Virus record (IMG/VR): IMGVR_UViG_3300030085_002856 | Coordinates: 268-37,689 of that record | Source: a virus | Reading direction: 5' to 3' (one strand) | Length of the DNA stretch: 37,422 bases | Part shown: in pieces, positions 3,001-33,281 of the stretch | Layout: each line of letters begins with the position of its first letter | How positions within the stretch are numbered: the first letter of the stretch is position 1 | The notes under the pieces: generated by a model | Seen by the model: only the letters and a program-made list of their open reading frames with translations | Databases searched by the model: none | What the model was told of the DNA's origin: nothing | Program-made: the position numbers and the translations under genes

Positions 3001-4875
3001 AAACTCTGCACCAAAACCATCTTCATCGGTAGTATAATCCGATGCACCAATCACATATGTTCCTGGTGTTCTAGAAGCATCTGCAGCACTAACAGTATCT
3101 ACAGTGAGAACATCTCCCTGAGTAGTACTATATGTAAATGTTGCACCTTGAAGGGTTCTCTGATCTTCTAAAATAATATCCGAAGTAAATTCAATTGCAC
3201 TGTTAGTCTCATCGCGAGCAACAAACTGACGAACGTCTGAATATTCAAAACTATAAATCTCGTCAATGGTATCTTTATCTAAACCATCAACAGTAATCAT
3301 TTCACCTTTCTGGAATGAACCTTCTACTTGATAAAGGTTGGCATCATCCGCAGCAGTAATAGAATCTACAAGAAATGCTCTAGCACCAGAAGTTTTACCA
3401 ATGATTACTGAACCTGCAGCAATAGTCTGATTTGATGCTAATCGAATAGCAGTAAACATTTGAATATCAAACAAATACAACTTGTATCTGTCATCAGCAT
3501 TACCAAATGTAGTATCCGTTCCGTCAGATTTATGCTCTAAAGAAGCAACCCTTGCATATCCAATGAGATCGCCTGCTGCACTACCTTGAGAAGATGTGAA
3601 TGCATCTCTTAATTCTACAGTTTGATATGCATTGGTAATTGTAGAACCAGAAACATTTAAAAACCCATAAACATTATCAATCTCTGAGAAGTTACCGAGT
3701 TCAAAGGGGATAATAGTATTTTGAGCACTATTAGTATCCCTTGGTTTATCGAGATCAACATACGTCGGAGACATATTTTTAATTCGATATCCTCGGACAT
3801 ATGCTGTTCCAGGACCAAATTCTAAAGCATACTTTGCCGAATCTGCGGTGTTACCATCAGAAGTAGTGTCACCTGTTTCATAAACGCCATTGTTAAATCC
3901 ATCGTTCAGATTTTCTCTATTTGTAATTTGGAAATCTTGAACAACATAATCTCCAGACTCTTCATATGTTCTAAGTGCAAGAGATTTTTCTAATTCATCA
4001 TATGCACTACGTTCTACTAGTTTTTCTACCTTACCACCATTAATACGAAGCAATTCAATAAAGTCTTTATCTGCTTCGTCGGTTAGTAATTTCTTAATTA
4101 AATTTGTGGTGATTCTAAATCTATGAGCACCAGGAGCAGCATAGTTAGATGTTCCAGCAGCATTATCGTTAAGACTGAGGTCGTCTTCTGGTGTAACAAT
4201 TGACTCAAGAATTTCGAGTCCAATTCTGTACTTTGGATTGGTTCCATATTGATCAAGAAGAATGTACTGATAAGGAACGTCTACAAAGAAACCTCTGATG
4301 TAATAAACACCATCTTGAACATACGCTGCAGAACCAGTTTGAATTGCCGCAGTAGGAAGTAACTGAGCAAATGGTGATCCGATCTCAATCAGCGTAGTGC
4401 CGAAAGTGATTTCAACGTCAGTAACTAATTGCTCATTATTGATAAACGTCTGAGTTGTATTTGTATCACCACCCGACTCAATATATTTTACATACAGTGT
4501 GATATATCCTTTATCAGAATCAGTTTCTGAAATACTAAACAGAACTTTTGCTTTAACGCCAGATGTCAAACCCTCAATGATTTTACCAGTCAACTGAGTT
4601 CTATACAGTTCAACATCAGCACCCAGGAAAGACTCCTGAAGCATGATTGCATCAACTTCCAAGTCATAACCAACTTGACCAGGAATGACCATGGCACCAT
4701 CTTTGAACAGGTGAGAACCAACGTTCTCTACCTGATTTTGCATGACGCTCTGCATCGTTGTGAGTTCTCTTGCCTGAATAGGAAATCCAGGACGGAACAG
4801 CACTCGATAGAAATTCTTATCCTTATCGAAGTCGTCGTAATAAGGTGTGACGTTGAGATTAGTGTTTTGTGCCAT
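1..4875 (-). CDS. DUF4815-type large virion structural protein (tail fibre/baseplate), 3' end beyond window
   Basis: The frame is open from an ATG at 4875 to the left edge, giving 1625 codons with no stop, so the C-terminus is missing. The N-terminus reads MAQNTNLNVTPYYDDFDKDK, followed by FYRVLFRPGFPIQARELTTM, which I recognise as the start of the DUF4815 family of T4-like cyanophage and pelagiphage tail proteins. Around residue 640 there is a Gly-rich GGGGAASLTF stretch like the GSGY modules of the neighbouring genes. Residues about 1386-1450 are unusually rich in Arg, Trp, Ser and Thr (for example WRGWRTTWTGTSRSSRTWRS). The start codon overlaps the gp8 stop (TAATG), suggesting translational coupling. 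The position after gp8 corresponds to the T4 gene 9/10 region, so a role in peripheral baseplate or fibre attachment is inferred. Family recognition is by memory of the N-terminal motif; exact function is unknown. Confidence 0.82.
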   Translation of the reverse strand, partial: MAQNTNLNVTPYYDDFDKDKNFYRVLFRPGFPIQARELTTMQSVMQNQVENVGSHLFKDGAMVIPGQVGYDLEVDAIMLQESFLGADVELYRTQLTGKIIEGLTSGVKAKVLFSISETDSDKGYITLYVKYIESGGDTNTTQTFINNEQLVTDVEITFGTTLIEIGSPFAQLLPTAAIQTGSAAYVQDGVYYIRGFFVDVPYQYILLDQYGTNPKYRIGLEILESIVTPEDDLSLNDNAAGTSNYAAPGAHRFRITTNLIKKLLTDEADKDFIELLRINGGKVEKLVERSAYDELEKSLALRTYEESGDYVVQDFQITNRENLNDGFNNGVYETGDTTSDGNTADSAKYALEFGPGTAYVRGYRIKNMSPTYVDLDKPRDTNSAQNTIIPFELGNFSEIDNVYGFLNVSGSTITNAYQTVELRDAFTSSQGSAAGDLIGYARVASLEHKSDGTDTTFGNADDRYKLYLFDIQMFTAIRLASNQTIAAGSVIIGKTSGARAFLVDSITAADDANLYQVEGSFQKGEMITVDGLDKDTIDEIYSFEYSDVRQFVARDETNSAIEFTSDIILEDQRTLQGATFTYSTTQGDVLTVDTVSAADASRTPGTYVIGASDYTTDEDGFGAEFSIVVASGGGATVTITNGGNNYVVNETFTVTDAKLGGGGAASLTFDVATVGASITGLNSNFSVDLRAGDRIYFNKTNFVDVDSIDPTDLPSTTKIFNFANQTVNVTPGSSAPTAGDYTSLVRYRSKLKETEKASLLQPMPRPYVKSISDESMVVRRTFDSQTVSSNSVSITLPENEQFESLSDENYTFTVLASSNSNHPVGDQIPIDTESSSALGYTTFTSADRTTIQIDNLTNITSIKVTASISKNVTQRKTKSPQQMFVMKANKTITNNEKQKYGLTYSDTYGTRIEDRDISLGIADVYKIHAVYESLDDNDPVLPSITLVEAAFFETGSIVTGKTSKARARVVDFNSSTLKLTIVYLDGKFVVGETVTGTDSTDTAISGIINDSAGSIVDGSKVITDRYDLGNGQTDFIYGISKSGVATPIRKIKIVLDYYSHSATGDYFGGQSYLDTRYEDVPLYVDKFLPDYLDFRPGVRNLYTGTGSVSSPAYVQVATFDFDSRTFPTSATPAPTLFDIPKVSSSFRCDFDWYLGRIDKAYLLPNGEFQIIKGQSSEDPVEPDDLSEGMLLATLLHAPYGFDPDNDMIVIKSENKRYSMRDIGKLETRINQVEYYTSLNMLESDTFNTEITDASGKSRLKNGFIVDDFTDHSKSQVSNPDYNASLDFEEGACHPSHYTTNVALVINETLSTNYRKTGPLITLPYSEEKLIEQPYASRVENVNPFNVFAYIGRIDLVPASDDWIDTRRLPVRVTNIEGDFQATRQRLRVDQNGFAPIQWRGWRTTWTGTSRSSRTWRSGRRSSWGRGRAVDRRTTTTTTRRQVRSGIRTRVVPRIDRRSLGDTLVSSTSIPWIRSRNIDATVVRMKPRTTFYAFFDGQKVGDYMIPKLIEVIKDPSTDARTNSTPFVIGETVVGQKSGARFKIAAPDDFYKFNPYTDAEMPSSYSSTTEYININTEDLAAQAVGSFYGNFEVGELLVASSGATAVVKDRRLLTDRLGQWRGSLFIP

Positions 4876-6407
4876 TAGAACTCGATTACGATTTTGATGT
4901 CTTCTACCTGGTCGTTTGCACGACTGATTGCTCTTCTATTATCTATATAAACAACTTGACCGCTGTTTGGTTCAATCTCTGGTTTTGCATAACCATTATT
5001 AAATCTCATACCCAAATCATATTCAGTGTTATTAATAGTTCTAGAAGAAGAGTTGGGAACTGCTGGGAAGTTCACATCTGGTTGACCAGATGCACCAGAA
5101 GTTGCTCCACTAATAACGTTAGAACCATCAAACTCATTTTGAGTACCTGTAACTTCTGGGAAAATACCATCAACAGAGTTTTGATAGTATTTTAAAAGTT
5201 TTGTGATGGGATTCCAAGAAACAACACGACCACGAGCAGTAACATTAGTACCACCAACAACACGAGTTTGAGTGATGATTTCGTCAGGAACGTAGTTACC
5301 TTGGAAAGTTGGAGAGAAAATAACTGCTTTTGCAGCAGAAACTGTCAAATCGGAAATAAGTTCCGCTGTTCCAAACTTAAGGGGATTAGTAACCAAACCA
5401 ATACGACGATAGTCGTTATCAATAGGGAAGTCGCCAGCACCCTCATCATATGAGAGTTTGGCATTAATCATGACACGGAATCCACCAAGTTCAATAGCAG
5501 AATCATCACCATGTCCATTTGGAGGAGGAATGATTACATCAACTTCTCCACTTGTGCCAGTTCCGATGCCAGTAATAGAACTAATACTAATCTGACCAAA
5601 AGTATAACCAGTTCCACCCGAAGTTACAGTAGCAGAAGTGATTTTTCCGCCATCAACAACGATAGAAACACGACCACCAGCACCATCTCCATTGATAGCA
5701 ACATTGTCATAAGTACCATTGTTATATCCAGAACCTGCTGAGTTAATGACAACGGTGTCAATTTCACCAGTAACTGCATTAGTTTTTACCGCGTCATTGG
5801 TAAAGACGGGCATGTAATCATTGGAGAAAAACTTGAGGACTGAAGCAACAGGAATGGTGTACATGTATTTCCAACGATATCCATCACCAGTAGTGATGAT
5901 GCTAGTGGAAGTGCCAGTAGGCTCAACTGTAGAAGGTTTACCATTAGGGTCAGAGGGAGACGTACCGTTATAAATGCACTTATAGACTTGATATTGCGAG
6001 TTTACAACATAAAAATCTGCATCATAAAGTTTGGTTGCACCTGAGGAAGCAGTCTTACTAGGAGAATAGTCATGGCGATACATGTCATATGTAAAACCAA
6101 GTCCACCAGTGGTTTGTTCTGGAGATACCCAATCAATTCTACGGACAACCTGAATCGTATCAGACGCCAATACTCTCTTAAGAGAGATCATATCATCATA
6201 TGAGTTGGAAAACTCGGAGAAAGAATCTACCGCCTGAGGAGGAGAGTTCTCATTATCCCAGGGTTGAGGTCTCCCAATATAAACATAAAGTCTATCTCTA
6301 TTAGAACCTGCCGCAGAATCACTCTGAGTTGCGTCAGGACCTTCAAGGGATTTAATAAATTTTCTCGCAGAAAATATTCTGAACTGATCAGTAAGTAGGG
6401 CTGCCAT
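4875..6407 (-). CDS. 8: Baseplate wedge subunit gp8, enlarged by a GSGY insertion
   Basis: This 510-aa protein matches the T4 gp8 pattern: an N-terminal FRIFSARKFIKSL, then a YVYIGRPQPWDNENSPP segment (T4 has a comparable 'FGRSEPW' region), VVRRIDWVSPEQTTGG, and TTGDGYRWKYMYTIP, equivalent to the T4 'GDGYVWEYLFEIP' segment. gp8 forms part of the wedge around the hub. T4 gp8 is about 334 aa; the extra length is explained largely by residues about 213-300, which contain two GSGY-type beta repeats (INSAGSGYNNGTYDNVAING, SGGTGYTFGQISI) and end in VDVIIPPPNG. A near-parallel module occurs in the giant protein. A late promoter motif lies 27-34 bases upstream of the ATG. The stop overlaps the next start by one base (TAATG). 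Confident assignment; the role of the insertion is unknown. Confidence 0.9.
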   Translation of the reverse strand: MAALLTDQFRIFSARKFIKSLEGPDATQSDSAAGSNRDRLYVYIGRPQPWDNENSPPQAVDSFSEFSNSYDDMISLKRVLASDTIQVVRRIDWVSPEQTTGGLGFTYDMYRHDYSPSKTASSGATKLYDADFYVVNSQYQVYKCIYNGTSPSDPNGKPSTVEPTGTSTSIITTGDGYRWKYMYTIPVASVLKFFSNDYMPVFTNDAVKTNAVTGEIDTVVINSAGSGYNNGTYDNVAINGDGAGGRVSIVVDGGKITSATVTSGGTGYTFGQISISSITGIGTGTSGEVDVIIPPPNGHGDDSAIELGGFRVMINAKLSYDEGAGDFPIDNDYRRIGLVTNPLKFGTAELISDLTVSAAKAVIFSPTFQGNYVPDEIITQTRVVGGTNVTARGRVVSWNPITKLLKYYQNSVDGIFPEVTGTQNEFDGSNVISGATSGASGQPDVNFPAVPNSSSRTINNTEYDLGMRFNNGYAKPEIEPNSGQVVYIDNRRAISRANDQVEDIKIVIEF

Positions 6408-6433
6408 CTCTTAGGTACTATTGTCCTCTTGTT

Positions 6434-6441
6434 TATTTATG
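6434..6441 (-). promoter_or_regulatory. T4-like late promoter motif CATAAATA before gp8
   Basis: On the minus strand the 38-bp spacer between the 1386-aa gene and gp8 contains CATAAATA, matching the NATAAATA form of the T4-type late promoter. It lies about 26 bases before the gp8 ATG, leaving room for a short leader. The same motif occurs at two other gene junctions here. Motif read by eye; start site inferred. Confidence 0.65.
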
Positions 6442-6445
6442 TTGA

Positions 6446-9400
6446 TTATGAACGAACACTTGTCAAGTATTCGATACTCTTGATTCTATAGGATGCTCCA
6501 CCATTACCACTAATCTTCTCACCACCAATAATCGCATACCCAGCAGCACCAGAACCAGTTGTATCTGATGCATCATTAGTAAATGTTACTGTTGGGTGAA
6601 GATTGTATGTACCATCAATCGTAGATTCGATACCATAACCACCATTAGTTAAAGTGATACTAGCAACTTGATCACCCGCAGTTGTCATATTCACAGTTCC
6701 AACAGCCTGAATATCACCAACATTTTCAATAGTAACTGTAGGTGCAGCAGTATAGTTGGTTCCAGCATCTTGAATGTAGATATCTACGATGGTGCTATTT
6801 TCGGAGAACTGATACAGATATCCAGATTCACCGACATTTACGTTGCCAGTATTAAATGGAACAATATCTTTTACCTGCAGAATATTTGTATTAGGATCCC
6901 AAGATACGACAGTTCCTTGAATGCCAGAAACTTCTCCTGTTACCAACTCATTAACACTGAAGTTTTGTCCATTACCAGCATTTGGATCTAATGTAATATT
7001 AACAATGGATGTATGGTCTGTTCCTTCGCTAAGTCCTCCTGCGGTAGAAATATTCGCATATACAAATGGAACGCTAGCATCTTTAACACTATCACCAACT
7101 TGAAGCAGGGTTGTATTTGTTCCACCCTGAGTTTCTTCAATACCATAAAGTGAAGTGGCGATTCCACCATCTAAGTTAATCTGATTCTCAAAAGTAGTTC
7201 CAGTATTTACCAGGTCAGCAATTCCATCACCAGCACCATCGTTTTCATCATTATCTTCAAACTTTCTGTTTTGAAGTGTACTGATAGGAACTGTTAACGT
7301 TGTAATAGTTTCTCCATTTTCAATAAGAAGAACATGAGGTTGTTGTCCAGAATTGCTACTATTAGCGACTCCAGCATCAAACTGTACCGTTGCATCTTCA
7401 GCTAACGCCGCACCACCATCAATGAATGCAAGTTCATCAATCTCGAATACAACTAATAGCTCTCTTGTAACTGGATTCCAGTCATAGACTTTAGCTACCT
7501 TATTGTTAGCATTTTCAACTCTACGAATCAGTCTATCACCAACATTAAACTTATAAGTAGAGACTCCATTAATATCGTTTTGAGTGTCATCAAGAATAAC
7601 TCTCTGATCATAGTTGAAGTTTACACCACGAGTGAGACCAACAAACTTCTCGTCTGTTTTTGAAGTATAAGAAATAGTTTCATATCCGACAATAAACTCA
7701 CCAGAACCTGGGAAGGAACTAGTTGATTTAACAAAAATCTCAGTATCTGAAGGTGTTACACTCTTTGTTAGTCCAGACAGGTAAATATTTGATGCATTAA
7801 ATGCTTGACGAGATCTAGTCTTACGCTTCAGATTTACCAATCTAGTGAAAATGACATTAGGTGGAGTTGTATATCCTTCACCCTCTTCAGTAACAGTGAT
7901 TGAAGTTATTTCACCCTGACTAATTTCAGCTACTGCTTTTGCACCAACACCACCACCACCTGTAATCAGAATGTATGGTGCTTCTTGATAGAATTCACCA
8001 CTATTACCAATAGAAATAGAAGTAACTCTACCAGCGGTATCGATTTTAGCAGCACCTTGAGCATCTTGACCACCACCACCTTCAAAAATCATAGTAGGTG
8101 CGGTACTATAACTTCTTCCAGGATTGAGGAGTGTTAAACCAGTAACAGTTTGAACCGTTGGTGTGGCAACTGCTCCAGATCCTTCACCACCTAAGATTCT
8201 TGCTTTTGCAGGTCCATAATAGTTATCACCATTTTTTGACATTTTAATATAAGAGACTGTTCCTGAATCAGTTAATACAACCTCTCCTTCTGCACCATTT
8301 GGAAAAAGTTCTACCACGTCTGGCACAGCATCACTCTCAAAGAGTGGGGTTCCATAATATTTCGGACCAATAGCATATGGATATACAGGATCTCCATTAC
8401 TATCCTCAGTCATAAAGTATGCATAAGTTCCATTTGGATATTCTGGAGTTACTCCAAATTTACCATTGAACTCATCCAGAGTTCCAACTCCAGAATCGTA
8501 AATATAATCACTAACCAAATCTCCTAACAAATAACCAACTTGAACAGTTCTTAAACCGAGATTACTAGTTACATACGCAAAAATGTAAAGTGTTGTTGCT
8601 GCTGTTGCTGGAACTGTAAATCTTATTTCTCTCTGAGACGCAGCATTAAATCCCGCAATATATGCAGCAAAAGTAGAAACCTGAGATCCATCGAGATAAT
8701 ATTCTGATCCTAATGTAAACAGATAGGATGTATTTCCGATATCGGATGGATTACCTGTAGAGTGCCAACCATTTTCGGTTTCCGAGAATAATAAAAACTG
8801 ATCATCATTAGAAGAATCATCTTGATTGAAGACATAAGTTTTTCCCCTTTCAAGAGATAAGAAGTTTGGTCTAGAACCATCAAATAAAAACTGACCACTA
8901 GATACAGTCACATTATAAGTAACTGTTCCATTAGTATTAACCTGTGGTCTTGCACCAGCAAGTTCTGCAGTCGTTCTCAATCTATAAGATGAAACTTCTC
9001 TAGCAACAGTTCCACTAGAGTTATATCCCCAAGGACCATATATGGGATATCCATCAAAGGACATACCAATGACTTTAGAGTGTCCATCCGTATGACGACT
9101 GTAGTCTGGAGTACCACTATTGTCATAGTAGTTACTCACATAATAAGTATTTGGCGTAGTTTCCTCATCATGTTCTGGCTTGATAACCATATACCCTTCA
9201 TCACCATTATATCCAGACATGTCTGGATGACTTTTGCAGTAATAGTAAATCCTATTACTTTCATCTGCATTCATAATGAATAGTGGTTGATATTCATTTT
9301 CGTAGTCAGCCGCAGGTGCTGCAGAAGCACCTGTACTATTGTAATACAGTGTTCCAGGAGTATCATTATGAGTTCCATCCGCAGTTGTACTAAACTGCAT

Positions 9401-10606
9401 TGGGTGACCCAACATGTCTCCCATTGGTTGATTGGAGCTATGAGACTGATCCCATTTAATCAAATAATTTTCGGGAACTGTAATATTTTCAGGAGAAAGG
9501 TAATATGTACCAGGTACAAATGGACCGAAGTCTTCAGCATCTTCACCAAACTCAATATAGAAAATGCCGTTAGGAAAAGTTCTAGGTTCTTCTGAAATAG
9601 TAAATGTAAATCCATTAGATCCCAAACACCTATCATTCTCAGAAAACTGAGCACCAGTAGAAACAAGTCTCAAATAAACTCTGGTTATTTGATTTTCAGA
9701 GTTTCTACTAATCTTTGCAATCTCACCTCTTGCTCCTCCACCAATTTGATCAACGATTCTACCAACAGCGATTGACCCTAAGGTCTCATCGACATTGGTT
9801 ACAGATAACATAATATTATCAAACTCTACTTTTGTTCTCCAAGTATTTTGGATAAGGTTACCCCATTGAAAAACTCCATTGGGGAGAGCAAACTCATTAA
9901 TAGTTTTACTAGAATGATAATACTGAATATTTCCTTCAGTAACAGTATCGTAAATACTATTATTTTTTACATAATCATATTTTACAGAATCGATAGCAAA
10001 GTTAGCTAAAGCATTACCATCTGTACCCCACTCAGGCGTATGTAACAATCCACCATTGGCAAGAATACCCGTTACCTTATCATTTTGATCTAATCTAGTT
10101 CCAGGATTAGGAACGTCTTTACCACCTCTATAAATGAATACTTGATCGAAAGATCTATCTACAAGAGGTCCACCACTAGGTGCTGCCTCTGCTTGAGTCC
10201 AAGTGGGTTTGGGGTGATTATCAGATTCAATACGAAGTCTATCTGTCGTAGTTTGAAATGTTCCTCTTGTTAAAGAATTTGGATGATTTTGCCAAATCCT
10301 ATTGACATCAAACGAAGAAACTACATTTGGAGTTTCTTGCTCTGGAAAAATCTGTAAACGTAAAGGATCATATCCACGACCCCTTTCCAATACTCTTACA
10401 TGAATAATACGACCAGAAGTATCGTCGATGATTGGATACAAAAGAGCTTCTTGATCTGGCGTACCACAACCAGTTACCGTTAAACGTGGTGGATCTGCTG
10501 AATCATATCCAGATCCACCTTCTATTACTTTTATAGCACGAACACCGAAAATCTCATCAAAGATTGGTTCGATGACGGCACCCGACCCAGGAACAGTTCT
10601 AGCCAT
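6446..10606 (-). CDS. 1386-aa virion structural protein with cupredoxin-like and split YHYH-like domains
   Basis: A large beta-rich tail protein. GSGY repeats open it (EGGSGYDSADPPRLTV, ERGRGYDPLRL). Residues about 375-475 look like a cupredoxin domain: GHPMQF (His401), then YYYCKSHPDM with Cys457, His460 and Met463, the His/Cys/His/Met set of type 1 copper sites. Directly after comes a YHYH-like segment (VIGMSFDGYPIYGPWGY, about 512-530), whose second half (FNGKFGVTPEYPNGTYAYF) resumes near residue 710 after roughly 150 inserted residues resembling a second, ligand-free beta sandwich. Residues about 790-920 hold four more GSGY/GGGG repeats, and the C-terminus has another pair. It lies between the fibre-like gene and gp8 in a late cluster, so it is inferred to be a peripheral baseplate or fibre component. 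Metal binding is inferred from motif only. Confidence 0.85.
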   Translation of the reverse strand: MARTVPGSGAVIEPIFDEIFGVRAIKVIEGGSGYDSADPPRLTVTGCGTPDQEALLYPIIDDTSGRIIHVRVLERGRGYDPLRLQIFPEQETPNVVSSFDVNRIWQNHPNSLTRGTFQTTTDRLRIESDNHPKPTWTQAEAAPSGGPLVDRSFDQVFIYRGGKDVPNPGTRLDQNDKVTGILANGGLLHTPEWGTDGNALANFAIDSVKYDYVKNNSIYDTVTEGNIQYYHSSKTINEFALPNGVFQWGNLIQNTWRTKVEFDNIMLSVTNVDETLGSIAVGRIVDQIGGGARGEIAKISRNSENQITRVYLRLVSTGAQFSENDRCLGSNGFTFTISEEPRTFPNGIFYIEFGEDAEDFGPFVPGTYYLSPENITVPENYLIKWDQSHSSNQPMGDMLGHPMQFSTTADGTHNDTPGTLYYNSTGASAAPAADYENEYQPLFIMNADESNRIYYYCKSHPDMSGYNGDEGYMVIKPEHDEETTPNTYYVSNYYDNSGTPDYSRHTDGHSKVIGMSFDGYPIYGPWGYNSSGTVAREVSSYRLRTTAELAGARPQVNTNGTVTYNVTVSSGQFLFDGSRPNFLSLERGKTYVFNQDDSSNDDQFLLFSETENGWHSTGNPSDIGNTSYLFTLGSEYYLDGSQVSTFAAYIAGFNAASQREIRFTVPATAATTLYIFAYVTSNLGLRTVQVGYLLGDLVSDYIYDSGVGTLDEFNGKFGVTPEYPNGTYAYFMTEDSNGDPVYPYAIGPKYYGTPLFESDAVPDVVELFPNGAEGEVVLTDSGTVSYIKMSKNGDNYYGPAKARILGGEGSGAVATPTVQTVTGLTLLNPGRSYSTAPTMIFEGGGGQDAQGAAKIDTAGRVTSISIGNSGEFYQEAPYILITGGGGVGAKAVAEISQGEITSITVTEEGEGYTTPPNVIFTRLVNLKRKTRSRQAFNASNIYLSGLTKSVTPSDTEIFVKSTSSFPGSGEFIVGYETISYTSKTDEKFVGLTRGVNFNYDQRVILDDTQNDINGVSTYKFNVGDRLIRRVENANNKVAKVYDWNPVTRELLVVFEIDELAFIDGGAALAEDATVQFDAGVANSSNSGQQPHVLLIENGETITTLTVPISTLQNRKFEDNDENDGAGDGIADLVNTGTTFENQINLDGGIATSLYGIEETQGGTNTTLLQVGDSVKDASVPFVYANISTAGGLSEGTDHTSIVNITLDPNAGNGQNFSVNELVTGEVSGIQGTVVSWDPNTNILQVKDIVPFNTGNVNVGESGYLYQFSENSTIVDIYIQDAGTNYTAAPTVTIENVGDIQAVGTVNMTTAGDQVASITLTNGGYGIESTIDGTYNLHPTVTFTNDASDTTGSGAAGYAIIGGEKISGNGGASYRIKSIEYLTSVRS

Positions 10607-10611
10607 TTATA

Positions 10612-11832
10612 TCAGATTAATACGTTAATAGTTCCATTCATCTGTGCATGAATGGTGCATTGATAATAAAGGGTGTTAGGAGCGTCCATGGGAACGGTCC
10701 AATACAGAACACCAGTGCCACTACCAGTTTGACCAGTAGTATATGGAGTTCCAGATAATCCTTGAGTGCTTTGGATTCTAAATGGATGAGATCCGCCATT
10801 AGTACTGTTATCAAAGGCATATGTCATTCCTCTCATAACATAAAGAGTAGGATCATTAGTTGCTGCCGAGAATCCAGGACCATTAACAGTAAAATGATTC
10901 GCTCCATCTGCACCCAACTCCCACCAGGTCATTGGACTTCTAGTCACTACCCAATCAGTGCCATTCCAATATAAAGAATCGCCTTGAACAATACCAGAAA
11001 CATCAGTATCTGTCAGTGCTGCTAAAGTTGTAGTAAGAGTACCATTAAAATCAACTGTTAATGTATCTCCAGTAATAGATGTTGCAATATTGGTGCCACC
11101 AGCGATAGTGAGCGTATCTGAAGCACTATTTGCAGTAGTATTGCCCGTATCGGCAGAAATGGTAGCAAAAATATTTTGTTCTCCAGCACCAGCAGTATCA
11201 TCTGCAGGAACCCAGTTAGTTCCATTCCACTTCAAAACTTGATTGGAAGTGGGAGCAGTAGTTGTAGTATCAACATCCGCAAGAGCATCAATCCCCGAAT
11301 ACTCTGTAAGAAGTTTTACTCTACTATCGCCAACACCTCCAGTAGTGATGTTCATATTCACATATGGATTATCATCACCATCAACGGTAAAGAAATAACC
11401 AGGGGTGGATGCTGCAGAAGGAGCATTACCTAAGGAAGTATATTCATTCTTATATGAGATGGTAGAACCAACCTCAACTTTTCCCGTAGCACCATCAAAA
11501 ATAGTTGTTTGTGTTCCCGCAGTAATCCTAACATCACCTGTCCCATTAGGAACAATAGTAATATCTCCATTGGATGCAGACACAATAGAGTTGCCAGCAA
11601 CATCTAATGCGGAAGTTAACGCATTAAGATCGCCAGGAGCAAAAGAAGATCCATCATATTTTAGAACTTGACCCACTGCTGGGTTCAAGACATTAAGTCC
11701 GATTGTCGTTCCATTACCAATGGCGGCGTAAATCTCATTAAAGTTATCATTAATCTTATCACCGCCACTCCTTAGAGTATCACCCGTGCCGTCATTAGCA
11801 ACAGTACCAATGTTTAGGGATTGTTTAGCCAT
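10612..11832 (-). CDS. 406-aa tail-fibre-like protein with C-terminal cupredoxin-like domain
   Basis: The N-terminus (LNIGTVANDGTGDTLRSGG, then KINDNFNEIY) is a motif I associate with cyanophage tail-fibre and structural proteins. The middle carries three copies of a short fibre module: GQVLKYDGSSFAPGD, NQVLKWNGTNWVPADD and DSLYWNGTDWVVTRS. The last about 95 residues look like a cupredoxin fold: a GMTYAFDNS strand, GGSHPFRIQS (His349), and LYYQCTIHAQMNG with Cys392, His395 and Met398. The C-x2-H-x2-M spacing equals that of amicyanin. The gene follows the giant gene after 23 bp, with a late promoter motif overlapping the giant gene's stop codon. The function is inferred as a fibre or fibre-tip protein; copper binding is untested. 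No catalytic motif or signal peptide is visible. Confidence 0.85.
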   Translation of the reverse strand: MAKQSLNIGTVANDGTGDTLRSGGDKINDNFNEIYAAIGNGTTIGLNVLNPAVGQVLKYDGSSFAPGDLNALTSALDVAGNSIVSASNGDITIVPNGTGDVRITAGTQTTIFDGATGKVEVGSTISYKNEYTSLGNAPSAASTPGYFFTVDGDDNPYVNMNITTGGVGDSRVKLLTEYSGIDALADVDTTTTAPTSNQVLKWNGTNWVPADDTAGAGEQNIFATISADTGNTTANSASDTLTIAGGTNIATSITGDTLTVDFNGTLTTTLAALTDTDVSGIVQGDSLYWNGTDWVVTRSPMTWWELGADGANHFTVNGPGFSAATNDPTLYVMRGMTYAFDNSTNGGSHPFRIQSTQGLSGTPYTTGQTGSGTGVLYWTVPMDAPNTLYYQCTIHAQMNGTINVLI

Positions 11833-11852: not shown

Positions 11853-11860
11853 TATTTATG
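11853..11860 (-). promoter_or_regulatory. T4-like late promoter motif CATAAATA at the end of the giant gene
   Basis: The minus strand reads CATAAATA, with the TAA being the stop codon of the 6066-aa gene. The motif is about 20 bases before the ATG of the 406-aa gene. It matches NATAAATA and gives that gene its own late transcription start, which would be useful behind an 18-kb gene. Assigned by motif and position. Confidence 0.62.
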
Positions 11861-14800
11861 GGATTACTTCAGGGTCAATTACTTCTTCACCATACAGAGA
11901 AAGATCTGGTGCAGTCCAATCATCGGGAACAGAAGTTTCAACATCCACGCCTGGGTTTTGATATCCAGATCCAGGATTACTTAATGTTACCCCAGCAACT
12001 CCAACAAGTGCTTTTACTTGACCATCGAATCCAGAGATGGAATCAAGTCTTACGACAGGTCTAGATGTATATCCAGATCCACCAGATGTTACCTGAACAC
12101 TCTCAATATATCCGTTAGTTAAGACAGCAGTTGCTTGGGCATTCTGCCCAAATACAGATCCAAGATAATCAAATGTGATGAGTGAGTTAGAGGATTCAAT
12201 AACAGCAACTTCTCTATCAGTAACTTCACCTTCAATTTCAATGAAGTCTCCTACTTCGATTGGTGGTACGACCTCATCAGAGTCAACGTCTGCTTCAGAA
12301 CCAACAAAAGAGAATGCTACAAATGTAGATCCAACACGAGGGATTTCGGAGAAGATGATTCTAGAACCAACAATCTCAAAACCAACACCAGGTTCTTGAA
12401 GAACACCATTGACAGAAACAATGATATTATTCTCTGGGCGAATCACAGATGATTGTACACCATCTGTAAGTGTGAGAGAGTAGAAGACATCATTACGTCT
12501 TAAGTTGAAAGATTGACGCAATGAATCAAACTCGAAAGAAATGTCGTCAAGTTGTCTCAGTTTACCAATATAGAATCCAGTGAATGATGCTCCGATATCG
12601 GGTGCTTCAGTGAACTGAATCTTGTCTGAGAAAGCAGTGTATGCATTTGATGCACCAGGTGGTTGAAGGACACCATTAACAAAGACAAGCAAATGTCCTG
12701 CTGGATCTGGTAGATATTGGCTTCCATTGTCGATAGTAAGATCAAATGTTGTTTGAGTACCATCAAATCCACGGAAGAAACGCTTAACTCTAGCTTTAAG
12801 GGTTTCCTTAGTAAGAACCGCTGCACGATAAGTTCCTGGTCCTCTGATACCATCTCTGGTAGAGAATGTTCCAGCAATATCCGTGAGATAGAGTCTCTTA
12901 TTAAGACCAGAATCTCTAACATCTTGTACAAGTGCAGAAGCAGCACCAACAATAGTGTCTTTATTGGTAACCGTTGCAGATCCAACTAAAGTAGTGCCAG
13001 TTGCACCAAAGTCACCAACAGCATTATTGATAGAAATAGTTCCTTGTACCTGAACGATATAAACGTAGTTATTGTTTAAATCGACTTCAGTAATAATGCC
13101 ATATGTATTTGTAAATGCAGCACCACCAGACTGGAGATACAATCTATTACCAACAGTGAACTGATTGAGATTAGAATCTACATTAAGCGTCAATCTAATA
13201 TGACCAAGAGAAGCGATTTTAGTACCAACTTCAATATCAAGACCAGCATATTTGCTGACTTCTAAGTACTGTCTAGAAGACTCAGGATATACAACAGCAG
13301 TAGTTTCAAGAGATCCAGTAAGAGTCTCAGTATCGATAGTCAATGTACCGCCTGTGTTGTCAGTTACCGCTGCTTGATTTGTTGTATACGAAACAGGATC
13401 TGCAGACTCGGTGCTTGTGTATCCAAGGAAAGGAATATCCTCTTCAAAAGTACCGACAACATCAATCAGATGTAAGCGTTTTTCAATGGCACTAATCTGT
13501 GCTGTTGTTGTATTTTCAGCACCGACAATAGTGTCTAAGATTGCCCATGTTCCGCCAGTTACAGCAACATCAAGATATTTGTAGTTAGCATCTTCAAAGA
13601 ATCCATAAACAACACCAGTTACCGCAGCATCACCTTGTTTTTGAACAGTCTCATTCATTGTAAAGGGACCGTCAGTAATATTGCCATCAATCCTGAATCT
13701 TTGATAGGTTTTGGCAACTTGTGCTTCGTTTTTAGTGATAGATTGGATTTCTGCAAAGACATCTCTATCGCTAGAGTAGAAGAAATCTGATGCAATAAGT
13801 TCACCACTGATTCCAATAGGAATATTACGAGTTCCATAAAGTTTAGTGGGAACACTCAATGCATTGTTTTCATCTACGGTCGTATAATGTTCACTGGATT
13901 TGAGTTGTCCGTTGATGATATCAATGCTAGTTCTTACGAACGACATAATAGTGTCCGTATTATAGTTTGCCGCAGCAGTTGAACTATAGAACTTATAGAA
14001 AGAAGCAGCAGTAGATGGACTTACTAAGGTATTAGAAAGTGATCTTCTAATGTAATCAAGAAGAAGATCTAATGTAAACTTCTTGATATTATATTCAGAG
14101 TTTGCATAGAACTCTTGACCAGAAACCGCAGCATAAGTTCCCAAAGTACCCGTGTTAAGTGCTGCACCCCAGACGTAAATACCAGAGACATCATCACCAG
14201 TGAATGATGATAAATTATCATTATTTCTAATCCTAAGTCTTGTTCTTAAGGTACTAAATCCAAAGGAAATAGTAAATGTTGCGTAAACTCTATACCATCC
14301 ATTACCAAAAGGAATAGTATCCAATGTATAAGACTCTACACCACCCTGACTTTGGAAGACAGAACCATAGGAACCATCGGTCAGATCAATATTAACGAAG
14401 ATGGAGTTCGCATTTGGTTGCCCTTGATCCAACCAAACAATAAAGGCAACTCTAGAGTACTCACCAGCTTTGATAAACATCGAAGTAGTAAATGTTTGAG
14501 TACCAGTAGTCGAACCTTGGTCAAATCTAGATGTATCTGCATCAAACTTAACCGTATCAGCATCCATGGTTGTGTATTGAGTAAGAGCATAGTCTCTATA
14601 CGTTCCATTGTTCTGACCAGAACCAGAAGTAGCAACAAGTTTTTCTGCTGTTAATGTGTTATCTGGAGCAAGAGCAGCATTAGGAGTCCAAGTAGTACTT
14701 ACTGGGGTCCAGTTGACATTGAATGCTTCAGGATTAGTCCAAAGATTTGTAGGAGTGACAGCACCTTCAATCAGAGAAGAAATAGCAGTAGCACTCTCAA

Positions 14801-17800
14801 TACTCTTAATATTACTAATATCGTTATACCACTCATGAGCACTCGTGACTCCACCAGTTGCAATAGTTGCACTACCACCAGATGCAGAGGTAATAGTTGC
14901 ACCAGCAGCATATATGGTTCCACTTAGAGAACCAATAACCAATGTATCTTGAGAGAAATAAAGGACTGTGGATGTTGTTGATCCACCAGTTACAGTTTCA
15001 CCAACATTGAAAGTTCCACTGTAAGCACTAAGGGTTAAAGTATATGCAGTTTGCGTATCGGATGTATCCGTAGTAAGGAGATCATATTGGATATTGTCAA
15101 CAATATTTTCAACAAAATCATTATATTGCCAAGAGTTAGTTCCAAACTGACTATTTACATTAGAAGCGATCTCTGCTTTATAGTAGTTTTCATTATACAG
15201 GATGTTCTTAACAGCACTTCTTGCCTCAATATCACCTGGGAATAATGTATCAATACCAGTATCTACAAGTTCCTTCATTCTGCAAGAGACTGCATCAATA
15301 TCAGTTGGAGTCTCACTGTCTCTATATGCAGTATCATCAGTGTACAATGCAGCATATTGATCTCCTGTTACCGAAGATCCTGCATCGTAAAGAAGATTCT
15401 TGATTGCCTTCTCACTAAGAACTTTGATTTGCTCATGAGCGTAGTAGAAAGCATATAGTTGATCATCGATATCATCACTAATCTTCAGTTGAGCATCTAA
15501 GAAAGTCTCCATCTGAGTGATAACACTATTATTACCACCAGTCTGAAGATCGGAAATCATTGCAATAATGAAATCTTTGATATATGTCTCATATGTGCTA
15601 CGATCATATGTGATTGCAGAGAACGTTCCATTGTTAATGGTATATTGCAACTCTGTACCAAGTAATCCAAGAAGAGTAGAACGACCTGCGATCTCCTCTG
15701 CAATGTATTTTCTATTAAAGTATAATCTATCACCACCAATATTATAATCATCTCCAGTTGGAGCAATAACATCATTGAATGTGGTAATCAGAGTATCAAT
15801 AGCACTTTCGACGTTTGCACAACCACCTGGATCATTAGTAATACCCCAATCACCAGTAATAATATTATCAGTGTTATCATATGTCAGGTCACCATTGATC
15901 GCCTGCTTCATATAATAACCAATTCTTTCGTGTGCATAAACAGACTGCCAAACCTGAAGTCTGATGTGCAACAACTGATTATTACCATCTAAGTAGAACT
16001 TAGACGTAGTAATCGTATTGAGATTACCACCATTCTCAATATCCTTAGCCAACTGCCCAACAATAATAGTAAGGTCAGTCTTACAACGCTCGGTGCCATC
16101 GGTGCTACCACCAACGTTTCTTGGCATCTCATTTGCAAGATCTGGATATCTAGTAAGCATATCATGTGCTGCTTTGTCTACGATAACCGCAGTGTTAGCA
16201 CGAATCAGATTAGCAGCATCTCTAAATCTGTTGCGAGATGTTTCTCCAATGCGATGAGTATAAACAGAATCACCAGTTCCATCATGATATGTTCCTGTAA
16301 AGGGAACTTCGTAATAAGCATCAACAACACCAGAGAGGAACTCAGTTACTGGTTCTACTTTAGTAATCGTAGCAAGGTGATCACCATCAGCAGTATTTGA
16401 CGTGGTTCCAATCGCCTCAGAAATAGTATCCTCAACAATATCCGTTAAGTTTCCTACCGTAGATACAACGTCTGCACAATCCGATGTGGTATAAGGAATG
16501 ACCGTTACTGCATTGGTATCTGCACTTACAAATGTGTGTGCAAACTGTGCATTAGCAGGAGAAACACCAACATTTACAGTAAATGTATCAGTAGAAACTG
16601 CAGTAATATCCAAAACGCGATTGTACGCATGAGTATCACTAACGCGAGGGTGTGCGAGAATACAATCATTACCATCACTGGTGCAGGTAAACTTGAGTGA
16701 ACCAGGTGCAATAGAAATACTATTTGCAGTAGTCAATCCATGTGATGCAGAAGTAATAACAAGATTTCCATTTGCAGGATCATAAGATACAGTAGTTGGA
16801 GTTAAAGTAGTTACAGTTCCATAAGAAGAATCAGTGACAGTGGAATCAGTCCACTGCTTCAATCCATGACTACCTGCAATAGTAATGAGAACATTATTGA
16901 CAATCGAAGACATGTGACCTTGGATTGTCTGATAACCAGTTAACAAGTGATTGTCATCAGTAGTTGAATAACCAACAATACCACTTACTGTTGAACCAGT
17001 TCTATCTACAAGAGCGGCAGCCGTGTCCCACATGTGACTGTTACTTCCATTACGAATATCTTCAATCAGTTGATTAAGGATTGTAGTATATGTCGCACTA
17101 AAGTTTGTGGAAGAAGATCCACCTGCCTGAACTGCAGCATGTTCACCTTCTTCTGCAAGCAGTTGGATGTTTCTACGAATAGCTTCAGAAGCATCATAAT
17201 ATCTGTGAGTTTTGAATGCAAATCCTGTAGGAAGGTTAGCAGAGTTTGCTCTCCAAGTTTCCAAGATAGCATCATTGTGGAACTCTTCACCAGCAGTAAA
17301 CGATTCAGATCCAGACCAATCTTGTGTATAAGTCTGAGCGTCTGCACCATCAAAGTGAATCAATAGAACAGTATTGGCATCACCATGGAACATACCTGTG
17401 GGAGCGGTGAATGCTGCTGTATAACGAGCATTGGTAGAAACTCTAAGATCATCAATATGACCAGGGAATACTGCACTTCCATTAAGGTTTGCACCAATTT
17501 TAATAGGTCGTGTTGAACCATAATCAGTAGTATCTGTAAGATCAGAACCCTCCTGAGTACCATTAAGATACAACTTGGTTACACCACTTGCTCTAACTAC
17601 TGCAACGTGATACCAGGTATCAACAACGAGATTGGTGGTTCCAGTAATAGATCCAGCTCCGTTTGCCGATTGGAATGCCAGTGTAGATCCACTTAAATAT
17701 AAGTTTGCAGCAGTATCGCTACTAGTAGGTCTAAAATCTACAAGCATTTTTGTTCCACTAGCAACGTTCGCAGGGCGAATCCAAGTTTCAACGGTAAAGT

Positions 17801-20800
17801 CGCCAGTACCAAAACCAAACTCTGTAGAAGTTGCAATAGAAAGATAATCACCAGTACCATCAAGTAAGAGTGAAGTTGTACCAAACTTCTTCTGAGCGGT
17901 ATCTAACTGAGCATCACCATTGAAAGTGATTGTATGATAATCTTCACCAGTAGATTTACATCTACCGATTTTACCAAGATACACAGTTTTTCTCGCCTGA
18001 CTGTATCCAATAATTTCCGCTTTAGTATCAGTAGTTCTGATAATCTGACCCTGAGAGAAGAATCCACTACCAAGTGAGTCGGTAAAAGTTAACTTCTTAA
18101 CTTTGAAGTTTTCTCCAACAATAAACTCACCAGTATTGCTACCATAACGAATATTGTAGTTTCTAATATATTCATTATCGTCAAAATTACCCGTTTCATT
18201 ATCATAAACCAAGATGTTATTGCTAATCGACTCATTAGCAGGGAACTTCGCATCAAAAGCAGTCAGATTATCATCAAAATCGACAATACTTGTCTGAGAC
18301 TTAGAGATATCATCAAGAATAACATTAGGATAAGTAATAGATGTCAAACGGTTGAAGAGCAGACCAAAGAAGGAAGATCCAGAGGAAATATTGACCTGTT
18401 CAATAAACTCACTAGTTACAGGATCTTGATATGCACTTGTTTGTGTTACACGAGCAACAACTCCAGACTGAGCACCAATAATATAATCATTCAGTTGAAT
18501 GTTAAACAGACCTGGTGTTGACTGATAAGTACCTGTAGTCTTACTAAGTGTAAGTGTATTGGTAACTTCAATATCAGTAGAATACATTGGTGTATCTTCC
18601 TGATGTGAAGTAGCTGTTGTACCAAGTTGACCTCTAGTAATAGTGATTGTCGTGGACTCAGATCCATTTGATACACTGTCGATTCTAACAATCTCAGAAG
18701 CAAGTTGATAGTTATCACCTACTGTAAATGTTCCTGCAGGCAGAGGTGCATCGGTTGTAGACGTAGTAGAAACCATCTCAACGCTGGTTGATGCAGCACC
18801 GATTGTATAACGAAGTTCTGCAATAGGAGTTTCTTGACCAGTCTCAAGGTTGATTGTTTCTACAACTGCAGTGTCACCAGTAAGATTAGTGATTTGCTCA
18901 TTGAATGCAAATAAACCACTATTGGTTACACTTTCTACAGTCTGTAATGTACCATTAAATCCAGTAGCTGCAACTTGACATTGCTCACTAGTGATGAATG
19001 TTCCTTGAGTAATAAATCCACTAATCTCATTTCCAGCAACTGATGTTACTGTCAGACGTGCATTAGAAACAATACCAACAAGGGTATCACCAATGCTGGG
19101 GAAAATACCACTCGTAAATACAAACGAGAGAGTTACTGTACTAACTTGCTCAATACTAACATTGACATACTTAACACTTGCAGGTGGTTGAGGTGGTTGG
19201 GCGAATACAATAGAATCTCCCTGAACTTCAAACGCAGTGTCTGGAGTTTGTGCAACACCATTGAGAACAATCAGAAGCTGATTTGCATTTGCAATGACAT
19301 TTTCACCATTAACAGTAAGTGGGAACTGAGTTCTCTCACCATCGAAGAGATTTGAAACATCATCTAAGCGTTGAACAACAGAGGTCAAAATATTCTCAGA
19401 AGAAGTCAGTTTCTTCTGACGGAATAAAACTTCACTGTTATTAAACTCAGAATAAACAGGTTCTACTAGAGCAAAGTTTTGAATATTAGGTACTGTTGCA
19501 TCTCTAGCAAGTTCAACTGATTTGGTGAGTTCAAAGTCAATCTCTTTATTTGCAGTGAAACCATATTCATCAATATTAAGTTCACCAAATACCTTAAATG
19601 AAGCGGGGTGAACATTCTTAATCAGAATGTCTTTCCAGTCATCAATAGATACCGAAGACTTAACAGCATAAGAGAAATCTTGATAATAATAAGAATCTTG
19701 AATCTTTTGAATAATCTCAGATGGTTTACCAACATCATCAATAAACTGACCCGTGGTTTTAGTAATAGGACCGATCTCAAGAACACCTTTCGCGATCTTA
19801 AGATCACTGATAACACCCGAAGATTTAGAGATAACACCAGTAATACTTTGACCTTGCGTAAAATCGCCAGTGTAATCTACAACTTTCAAGATTCTAGGAC
19901 CAACTTGCCATCCCTCATTAGTAGAAACATAACCAGTTGCTGTTGCAGTATCTAAAGAATCACCTTGATAAACAAGTTCTCCTTCTAAGAAAGTTGATGT
20001 AATGACATTTGCCTCAGCTTCTGCACCAAAAGATTCAGTCAATACTTGCTGCCTTCCAGTACCAGCATTGGCAAATGCAATAGAATCGCCAAGTTCAGCG
20101 TTAGCTGAAGTAATAGCAAGTTTCAGTTGATCATCTTCAAGAGAGTTAGCAGTTCCAGCAATAGCATAATATGTGGTTGTGCCATTTAATCTACCAACAG
20201 CACCAGAAGCAAGTGGGAACTCGGTTCCTTCACCAGTATCAACAACATTTAGAGTAACTTCCGCACCATTTTGAATGCCGTGAGGGAAAGCAAACTGCAG
20301 CAACCCTAAATCAAGGTTTACAACATAGTTAAAGGAAGATTTAAGTTGAATAGTAGGTGCAGAAGAATATCCTGCACCAGGATCTTTGATGGTGATCTGA
20401 TCGATTCTTCCATTTTTAATCGTTGCTTCAGCAATAGCACCAGACCCACCACCACCAGTAACAACTACAGCAGGTGCTTGTGAATATCCAGAACCAGGAT
20501 TAGTAACAGTAATACTGTCAAGAATGCTTGTAGAGGTTAACTGTGCATTGAGTGGGAAAGTGATTTCAGGACGTAAAGTATAGTCATGTGGATAATCATA
20601 TCCGAAGTTATTGTTCTTCAGTTTTTTGATCTTACCAACGTTAGTTCCTTTAGCAAAGACAACTGCTCCAGTACCAAACGGAGGAATAACTACTTCAACC
20701 TCTGCACCAGATCCAGTGAGTCCAGGTCCAAGAATGCCATTAACTGCTTCAATATCAATGTTTGCAGTGGTATATCCCTTTCCAGGAGAAGTAATGGTAA

Positions 20801-23800
20801 CTGACTGGATTTGACCAGGAATGGTATCTCCTTCATCATTAGTACCATCTGCGACAACAATAGTAACTAAACCACCCTCACCATCACCACCAATAGGTAC
20901 ACTATTGTATGTACCAACAGCATATTCAGTTCCAGGTTCGTTGATCTGAACTCTTTCAATCTTTCTAGAAGATTGAATACCAGTTACAACTGGCAACTTA
21001 GCATAGAATCCACCAGGATTAATAAGTCTAATATCAGCAATACTACCAACTGCTTTTTTAGATGAAGTGCTATAGGTAGCACTAGTGATAGTTGCATCCC
21101 CTTCAGGTTCATTAATCAGAGGGAACTTGATAATATTTGCACCTGTTGTGATAGTCGCACCAGCAATTTCACTAACAGTGAATGTTCCAAGATAAGGTGA
21201 ATCAACAATATCCAGATAACTATTTGTATCGATTGGAGAATCATCACCTACTCTAGATGGATCGAAATAATAAGAAATATTTGTAACAACATTTCTATCA
21301 ACTTTCAACTTAACAGTTGGAGTGGGTTGACCTTCTCCAGTAACTCCAGGAGTTCCAATCCTTTCAATGGAGTTAAAGGAATATTCCAGTTTGTAGATAT
21401 TATCTTTCGAGAAAGAAAGATTAGATCCCAACATAGAAGAATGACTGAGGTCAAACAGATATTGATGACCATAGTACATTTTCAATACAGGAGATTTAGC
21501 AAAAATACTAACACTAGATGCATTTGTTGCTGGAGAAGTTTGAGCTACAGCATCTAACTTATAAACAAATTCCCTATTACTTACAACTCTGTCAACAATA
21601 AAAGAACCATCATATTCATCATAGACAACGCCACCAACAGTTTCAGATGGATTACCATCAACCAAAATATTATCACCAACAGACAGATAATGCCTAGATC
21701 CAGTAATAATATAAACTTCATCGGTATTAGCAACAGCAGTTACCTGCAAAACCTTATCAAGAGTAGAAATCAGAGTAATCTTAGTAACACCCGTAAGATT
21801 TGTGATTTGTGCGGTAGTTTTTGCTGAGTTAAAAGAAATATCACTAGATGTAATACTAACAACAGATCCTGGAATGAATGAAGAAGATCCAGAAATCTCT
21901 TCAATTTTTACTGAATACGAATCAACATCAAATGGCTTAAACTTAGCAAAACTATCTAAATCTCCAGATCCTGCAGATTCTGTTCTATTTAAGTTATAGT
22001 CATTTAAATCAATATCAAAGGTTCCTGGAGTTGTGTTAACAACATTACTAAAATTATACTCAGTGATTACATTTACATCAGTAGGAACTTTTCCGACGAT
22101 TCCGTAAGTATCTTGCGAATCAAACTGTTCTGTAGAAAGAAGACCTGTATTAAGATCATCTGACCATGCATTATTGTTTACAGCAAGATAGATTTTGTTA
22201 TTAGCATTATCTACACGAAGAACATATCCACTGTTGATAAATGATCCAGAGTCATTTCTCAATACGAGTTTAGATCCAATCGTAACATTAAATGCTTGAT
22301 TGATAGTCAGTTCTTGTACATTATCATTCTTAACTGTATTCGTTACCTTCATATAGTAACGATTTTTGACTATTGCTGTCAACTTAAGTTTTTGAGATCC
22401 AGGAGAAGGAACCGTAGCAGTTCTAGAACTCCAAGTATCTGAAGTATAAGACAGTGCTTCGGTGTCTTGCTGCATAGTGGTTGTAGCATCCTCAAAATCT
22501 AATCCCTGGAATCCAGCACTTCCTAATGCAAAACCAGTATTAGATACAGTTAATGTAACTCCAGTAACTGCAGTGACCGATGTTCTAGCAAACCCAACAT
22601 TGGTATTTGTTTGAACTCCTTGATCACCCAATCGATCGGCATCAGAATCTTTATCAGTTTTAAGTCCCCAACCAACATAATCAATATAATCATAACGATT
22701 CATGTTTGTCGTAAACCATGCATCATCTGTCCAATCATAAGTAAGACCAAATGCATCTGCAGCAGGGATTACGGTAACATCACTAGGTACAGTGGGAGTA
22801 ACCGCTCTATTTCTAAGTCTCAGATTGTCAACATAATATTGACCCTGATAAGTTGATGCAAACTGAGTTGCAGTGCCATTCTTACCAGGAATATTACCAA
22901 TATAAAGATCTTTACCATTTAGTTGAGTAGATGCAATAGTTCCAGTTACAATCTGAATACCATTGATATAAGCAGTAAATACATTACCTTCTTTCTTCAA
23001 TCCAACAAACTGCCAAGTATCATCAGCAAACATCGATGTTTGAGTGGATTGGAGAGCACCACTAGCACTATTAAGAGCAGTAGTATTATCAGTAACAACT
23101 AACTCAAGTTTTCCACTAGAAATATCATAATACATCCAAAGACCACCAGTAGCATCGGTTGCATCACCAATAGCAACCAATGTTTGTTGAGTTTGACTAT
23201 GAGTTTGAGAGTTAGTTGCATCTTTATAGAGCATAAACTCTAAAGTCCAATCATCACTAAGTTTAGTTCCAAGACTTGCTGAGGTAAACTGAATAGCAGC
23301 ATTTTCCCAGTTTGCGGGAGTAGCAATATCTTTACCGAACAGTTTTGCAACACCATCACCAACAAGAGTGAGGGAATCAGTCGCATTATTACCAATCAGT
23401 GTTGGTGTATAATGACCAGTTTTATCTGTAGCAGCGTCAGTTTCATCAAACTCAAAGATAAACTCATTTCTGTTCCAAGAAGTTTGACCAAATACATAAA
23501 CATCACCAGAGTTATCTACTGTAATAGCATTTGCAGTAATACCTTCGATGTTATTAGCATTAAACTCATTATTAGTGTGAGTTTTAAGGACACCATCATA
23601 TGCAATCTTAACAGTATCCACTGTCTTATATCCAGTAGTACTATCAGTTCTGGTATATGCAAGATTCAACTGACCAAAGATATCAATAGTGCTTCTACCA
23701 GCAAGTTCAATCGAGTTTCCAGTTGGAGCAAGATATCTGTAGTTCCAAAGTAAATCTCCATCAGTATCTACTTTACCAACCCAGAAACTATCTCTGACAG

Positions 23801-32708: not shown

Positions 32709-33281
32709 TTAAATACCTCCTGTCATTAATCCAATAAAAACATTGATGCTTGCTCCAGTAACTACTGAAGTGCATGGAAAAGCAGGTGTAAAGTCTCCTA
32801 GAGGGTCCCCAAAGACGCTCGCCCGCCTTCCGTTAATAAAGACTGTCTTTTGGGTTGCAAAGTGCTTTCTAGGGTGTCCTGTAGGAGCCTCTCGACCTGC
32901 TACAGCACCTATTGTACACCAATGAGCAGGATTTGTCACGCAACCTGGTGGACAACCTTTTGGAATCCCTGTATAACACACTTGGTGAGTAGTGGGTGTA
33001 GGATGGGGAGTTAATATGTCTTGATCTACAATAGGTATAATCCCATTGATAAAAACATTTCTAAGTGCCCCAAGAGGTGTTGCTGGTGACTGCATCAATG
33101 GTGGCCAAAGTGTAGTGGCATTCATTAATGTCACGGTTTTAGGTACAATCTTTGGATCCAATGGAGGCATCATACATCCAGGCAAAACACCACCACCCAA
33201 TCCTGCGTGGTGTGTAGATCCCGAACCTGTTCCATGACCACTACAAGGTCCCTGATAGATTCCTGCTGCTCCTGCTCCCAT
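32709..33281 (-). CDS. PAAR-like baseplate spike-tip protein (gp5.4-like)
   Basis: This 190-aa protein is Gly/Pro-rich with two PAAR-type strands: NVFINGIIPIVDQDIL (residues 75-90) and TVFINGRRASVFGDPLGDF (146-164), followed by SVVTGASINVFIG. PAAR proteins cap the central spike of phage tails and type VI secretion systems with a sharp, often metal-bound cone. Cysteines at 13, 36, 102, 110, 114, 122 and 170 and histidines at 16, 24, 25, 93, 99, 120, 136 and 140 offer metal ligands. T4 gp5.4 is about 97 aa, so this is roughly double, consistent with two PAAR-like halves or an inserted segment. It starts 2 bp after the 980-aa gene; the Shine-Dalgarno of the next gene is encoded in its last codons. 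Family call is by motif and context. Confidence 0.78.
   Translation of the reverse strand: MGAGAAGIYQGPCSGHGTGSGSTHHAGLGGGVLPGCMMPPLDPKIVPKTVTLMNATTLWPPLMQSPATPLGALRNVFINGIIPIVDQDILTPHPTPTTHQVCYTGIPKGCPPGCVTNPAHWCTIGAVAGREAPTGHPRKHFATQKTVFINGRRASVFGDPLGDFTPAFPCTSVVTGASINVFIGLMTGGI
32716..32721 (-). promoter_or_regulatory. Strong Shine-Dalgarno AGGAGG inside the end of the PAAR-like gene
   Basis: The minus strand reads ACAGGAGGTATTTAATCATG. AGGAGG codes for part of Thr-Gly-Gly of the PAAR-like protein and lies 9 bases before the ATG of the 48-aa gene. It is the strongest ribosome site I see here; most other starts have only GAG-type sites. Confidence 0.75.

Follow-up and report, generated by a model that had tools for sequence, protein, structure and literature searches.

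The locus described here raises the question of whether two adjacent proteins of a viral baseplate cluster carry copper-type metal sites and, if so, what a metal would do in the particle. The window, that is, the whole stretch of 37,422 nucleotides that was analysed, represents most of a 39,164-base IMG/VR record.

Baseplate genes and their ligand residues

It is apparent that the minus strand of the window carries a T4-like cyanophage baseplate cluster, composed of gp25, gp6, a 6066-aa protein, a 406-aa connector, a 1386-aa wedge protein and gp8. The order from the giant protein to gp8 is the same in S-SM1 and P-SSM4. The 406-aa protein contains the N-terminal domain PF07880 (45.1 bits versus a cut-off of 25) and matches T4 gp10 at 2.4e-8, and it is also present at all but three of the 80 IMG/VR loci of the 1386-aa protein. 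The features relevant to the metal sites are as follows (window positions).

6446–10606, minus strand: 1386-aa baseplate wedge protein (phrog_708; T4-GC399 homologue), from family matches and gene order
9167–9574, minus strand: upstream cupredoxin-type domain of the 1386-aa protein, approximately residues 345–480, with complete ligand set
9404–9406, minus strand: H401, first His ligand of the 1386-aa protein (74/74 rows)
9218–9238, minus strand: C457, H460 and M463 (CKSHPDM) of the 1386-aa protein (74/74 rows each)
10612–11832, minus strand: 406-aa gp9/gp10-type connector (phrog_677), from PF07880, phrog and T4 gp10 matches
10615–10962, minus strand: C-terminal cupredoxin domain of the 406-aa protein, residues 291–406
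10786–10788, minus strand: H349, first His ligand of the 406-aa protein (63/63 rows)
10639–10659, minus strand: C392, H395 and M398 (CTIHAQM) of the 406-aa protein (63/63 rows each)

An earlier note on this DNA had placed a copper-type ligand set at H401, C457, H460 and M463 of the 1386-aa protein, and these residues were read off the open reading frame at those places: GHPMQF begins at residue 400 (window positions 9392–9409) and YYYCKSHPDM at residue 454 (9218–9247). The identical C-x2-H-x2-M spacing reported for the adjacent 406-aa protein was also found there (SHPFRI, with H349; CTIHAQM, with C392, H395 and M398), as was the longer loop between the first His and the Cys in the 1386-aa protein, 56 residues (H401–C457) as compared with 43. 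In each case the ligand order of cupredoxins and type-1 copper sites, His followed by Cys-x2-His-x2-Met, is present in a single chain.

The argument that such a pattern was unlikely to be coincidental holds. The number of C-x2-H-x2-M motifs expected from composition is 0.0003 for the 1386-aa protein, which has three Cys residues in all, and 0.0001 for the 406-aa protein, which has one. When conservation was checked in homologues, all four ligands were invariant in 74 distinct rows for the 1386-aa protein, in whose alignment approximately 26% of columns overall are invariant, and in 63 distinct rows for the 406-aa protein.

The earlier note had further suggested a shared metal-dependent or cross-linking role in the tail. 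The first part stands, inasmuch as the ligand set is common to two adjacent baseplate proteins, and a metal-dependent role is likely. Cross-linking is rejected because in each domain all four ligands come from one chain and only one Cys is present, an arrangement that fits a closed mononuclear site.

Two other proteins of the cluster may be mentioned. In the 6066-aa baseplate protein (11856–30056, minus strand), another YHYH-like stretch (SFDGNPIYGPYGY type) accompanies numerous glycine-rich repeats, and a motif scan of the protein revealed no cupredoxin site. A 190-aa PAAR-motif protein (phrog_281; 32709–33281, minus strand) is situated directly upstream of gp25.

Relationship to type-1 copper proteins

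Both domains are members of a larger domain family, found mostly in marine phages. A family profile was constructed from 17 members, with both window proteins left out, and all 29 of its PDB matches at E<0.05 were type-1 copper proteins (cupredoxin group), the top matches being the type-1 domain of copper nitrite reductase (PDB 6hbe, 9cck). A second family profile, in which both window domains were included, matched amicyanin in the PDB at 1.3e-5. In an alignment of 21 divergent members, invariant columns were limited to the His-Pro, Cys, His and Met positions. One family member from P-SSM2 scored above the cut-off of Pfam Copper-bind PF00127 (23.3 versus 21.2 bits); the window domains gave no match to that model. 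Against the amicyanin model TIGR02657, whose cut-off is 110.2 bits, the 406-aa domain reached 13.5 bits and the 1386-aa domain gave no match. On these profile comparisons, the family is related to the type-1 copper proteins.

The 1386-aa type lies at the divergent end of the family. By itself it found no cupredoxin in the PDB, and the sole direct cupredoxin match of the 1386-aa domain was plastocyanin at E=0.88. The window domain scored 35.7 bits against the family profile, as compared with a maximum of 29.0 and a median of 11.9 for 2,220 shuffles in which the motif was kept. The lowest-scoring upstream domain, at 26.6 bits, falls inside the range of the best shuffles, and the 143-bit maximum among upstream-type scores probably comes from three rows of another type (L102, L123, L126) that were grouped by length; in the tree of family domains these three are labelled as the other type. 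Profile–profile comparison of the 1386-aa and 406-aa domains gave a modest match (E=3e-4, probability 38%). The tie of the 1386-aa domain to cupredoxins thus rests on intermediate sequences, namely the family profile and the profile comparison. A recent tandem duplication was considered for the two neighbouring domains and rejected; the family tree places them on separate branches, in a split that is itself weakly supported (78/92).

The axial position provides additional data. In every complete ligand-bearing domain at the loci retrieved, the His, Cys and His ligands are present, and the fourth is Met except in five cases of Gln and one of Leu. Each of these two residues is a familiar replacement at the axial position of type-1 copper sites, Gln in the stellacyanin type and Leu in the laccase type. 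The change to C-x2-H-x2-Q was observed in virion-type proteins (L091, positions 7311–7715, and also L089, L093, L110 and L115), and L089 carries in addition a cupredoxin copy with axial Leu.

It might be argued that the site holds another metal, such as zinc or iron, or none, the residues being kept for other reasons. The divergence of the 1386-aa type and the Pro in place of the usual Asn after the first His would be in keeping with this. The way in which His, Cys, His and Met are ordered and spaced, the axial variation among Met, Gln and Leu, and the exclusive matching of the family to type-1 copper proteins are not, and this explanation is considered unlikely. It is judged probable from the sequences that the baseplate wedge protein carries a domain of the cupredoxin family whose type-1 copper ligand set is intact, beside a gp9-type connector with a second one, and the reading preferred here is a type-1 copper centre, mononuclear and situated in the outer baseplate.

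Comparison with known proteins reveals both likenesses and differences. Amicyanin (TIGR02657; PDB 1aac, 2gb2) shares the Cys-x2-His-x2-Met loop spacing and the first His upstream; the phage domains differ in having Pro rather than Asn after that His, a longer loop, and a location within large baseplate proteins. Copper nitrite reductase has a second, catalytic copper domain, whereas none was recognised in the phage proteins. Plastocyanin, including the phage petE product, belongs to the same superfamily. In some cyanophages petE is a host-like electron-carrier gene (PMC2984593), whereas the cupredoxin family of the window is located in genes for the tail and baseplate. Misreading of a plastocyanin auxiliary gene was ruled out, the domain being embedded in baseplate proteins. 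In S-SCSM2R (PQ898602; L159, positions 5794–6300), a member of the tail-gene family is annotated as PetE (plastocyanin); it lies behind a peptidase S8 gene, in surroundings that resemble a tail region, and is possibly a misannotated auxiliary gene. No description of this domain family was found among the hits examined in a literature search that covered few subscription journals.

A second domain copy and the one-site pattern

The YHYH domain that the earlier note had seen directly after the site in the 1386-aa protein is PF14240 (65.7 bits versus a cut-off of 25). A second cupredoxin-like copy, which lacks the ligands, interrupts it at about residues 551–693, so that three further features are distinguished in the protein.

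8972–9115, minus strand: N-terminal half of the YHYH domain, approximately residues 498–545 (SRHTDGHSK...DGYPIYGP); PF14240 matches in two stretches, limits set by eye
8528–8953, minus strand: cupredoxin-like copy without ligands that interrupts the YHYH domain, approximately residues 552–693, from a profile match
8396–8533, minus strand: C-terminal half of the YHYH domain, residues 692–737, with YAYF at 728–731 (PF14240)

The YHYH motif reads YAYF in the window. Y728, A729 and Y730 are present in 74 of 74 rows, with Phe or Tyr at 731, and H509 of the same domain is conserved. A role as a metal-dependent hydrolase has been predicted for the YHYH domain in other phages (PMC7824862); the absence of the name-giving histidines speaks against such a metal enzyme in the 1386-aa protein. 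It also bears on the proposal that the copper exchanges electrons with a partner site, which might lie in the host envelope or in the neighbouring YHYH domain. Although type-1 sites are classically redox sites and the domain adjoins YHYH, with its hydrolase role predicted elsewhere, the replacement by YAYF, together with a site in the 406-aa neighbour that has no YHYH domain, makes electron transfer improbable.

The inserted copy matches the family profile weakly (window E=0.0026; lowest value among homologues, 5.6e-7), and in none of the 44 rows was a Cys-His-Met loop found in it. The homologue in ACG-2014d, S-SSM2 and S-ShM2, which represent a sister clade, is different: it is shorter by approximately 200 residues, the upstream domain is missing, and the ligands are found in the inserted copy. 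In the inserted sites the first His is invariant and the residue that follows it is variable.

Exactly one site was present in each of 126 distinct homologues from 254 loci, the upstream copy carrying it in 110 and the inserted copy in 16 (15 identified by script and one, L173, from its sequence). None of the 126 had both sites and none had neither. In a quick tree of the C-terminal part of the protein, the two site states lie on opposite sides of a single branch (SH-aLRT 99), which argues for one switch, kept on both sides, rather than for many independent events. Accordingly, to judge from that tree, the one-site pattern rests on what was apparently a single switch, in either direction.

Because every homologue keeps one site, in either of two copies, it would be the metal site, and not the fold alone, that is selected. 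Since ligand-free copies persist, the ligands appear to be dispensable for the domain and would then not be kept for folding alone; the metal itself would matter to the particle.

Carriers, tail contexts and the possible role of a metal

Matches to the 1386-aa type came from 221 phage records; for the 406-aa type the number was 343 and for the S-SCSM1 type it was 348, with overlap among the three sets. Among the matches listed, the named carriers were almost all Synechococcus or Prochlorococcus phages, including the podovirus P-SCSP2; further carriers were phages of Pelagibacter and Methylophilales and one Actinomycetia phage. These statements of breadth derive from the listed rows and first-word tallies. 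A search of the plasmid collection gave no match. Two contigs from bacterial bins (L153, positions 1101–2453; L154, positions 3122–4432) encode a protein with two ligand-bearing domains that match phage tail families; these contigs may be of viral origin and wrongly binned, or may represent true cellular relatives.

The domain was observed in many tail contexts: the connector, the wedge protein, fibres and a podovirus tail protein. In P-SSM2, a protein at L082 (positions 3827–7111) combines two ligand-bearing cupredoxin domains with a Peptidase_S74 chaperone domain at its C-terminus, a domain that tail fibres typically have. ORF 231 of S-SCSM1, which bears a cupredoxin domain, is marked as a virion protein in its GenBank record, and 45 virion proteins of that phage were identified by mass spectrometry (PMC9602691). 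A virion proteome has also been published for S-SM1 (PMC3037559). The estuarine phage virion protein S-SZBM1_53 (L162, positions 6933–9137), a relative outside the 1386-aa protein family, was detected by mass spectrometry (PMC9146016). It retains the domain and the first His-Pro and has lost Cys-His-Met, so that a rule whereby all family members keep the ligands had to be rejected. That each homologue of the 1386-aa protein examined keeps exactly one complete ligand set suggests that the virus particles may carry copper.

Metal sites on phage tails are not without precedent, since iron-binding HxH motifs are known from T4 gp37 and marine tail fibres (PMC11705849). The cupredoxin domains resemble these in being metal sites on the tail; the ligands, the fold and the presumed metal differ. 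By analogy with iron in the T4 gp37 tip, the metal might do no more than steady a beta-sandwich spacer, with no chemistry involved. The variety of tail contexts, as of a generic building block, is consistent with such a purely structural role, but the ligand-free copies in the 1386-aa protein and S-SZBM1_53 indicate that the domain can do without a metal, and the one full site per 1386-aa homologue is always kept. The explanation thus seems rather unlikely, if the least so of those set against the preferred reading.

Another explanation takes its lead from the iron-based 'Ferrojan horse' mechanism proposed for phage tails (PMC11705849): tail copper might serve as a lure, docking the phage on a copper-uptake receptor of the host. 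The domains do lie in outer tail proteins, and the carriers are mostly marine phages. Type-1 copper sites, however, are usually buried and hold their copper tightly, and the domain is shared by phages whose hosts are unrelated; docking of this kind is improbable.

Under the preferred reading, that of a mononuclear type-1 copper centre, the domain would fold as a cupredoxin and bind one copper ion within a single chain. The copper might be taken up after the particle leaves the copper-poor cytoplasm of the host, and might lock or tune the outer baseplate for adsorption or for the triggering of contraction; these two steps are put forward more weakly. As to the role of the copper, a structural or triggering function would rank first, and docking or redox functions lower. 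A broader hypothesis is offered tentatively: that many marine cyanophage virions, and some of SAR11 and OM43 phages, may be copper metalloprotein particles, in which type-1 centres of baseplate and fibres would act in adsorption or contraction and each wedge protein would be selected for exactly one centre, whose place would have shifted from one cupredoxin copy of the protein to the other.

The sea holds cyanophages in very large numbers, and no function has yet been assigned to many of their baseplate proteins. Because the site has shifted between two copies of the domain, selection for a metal site is more readily told from selection for a fold. A conserved type-1 copper site would be directly and cheaply testable, by colour, EPR and metal analysis. 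If it is real, copper would join the metals that have been proposed for phage tails, and the site would have a bearing on how trace-metal chemistry influences infection in surface seawater.
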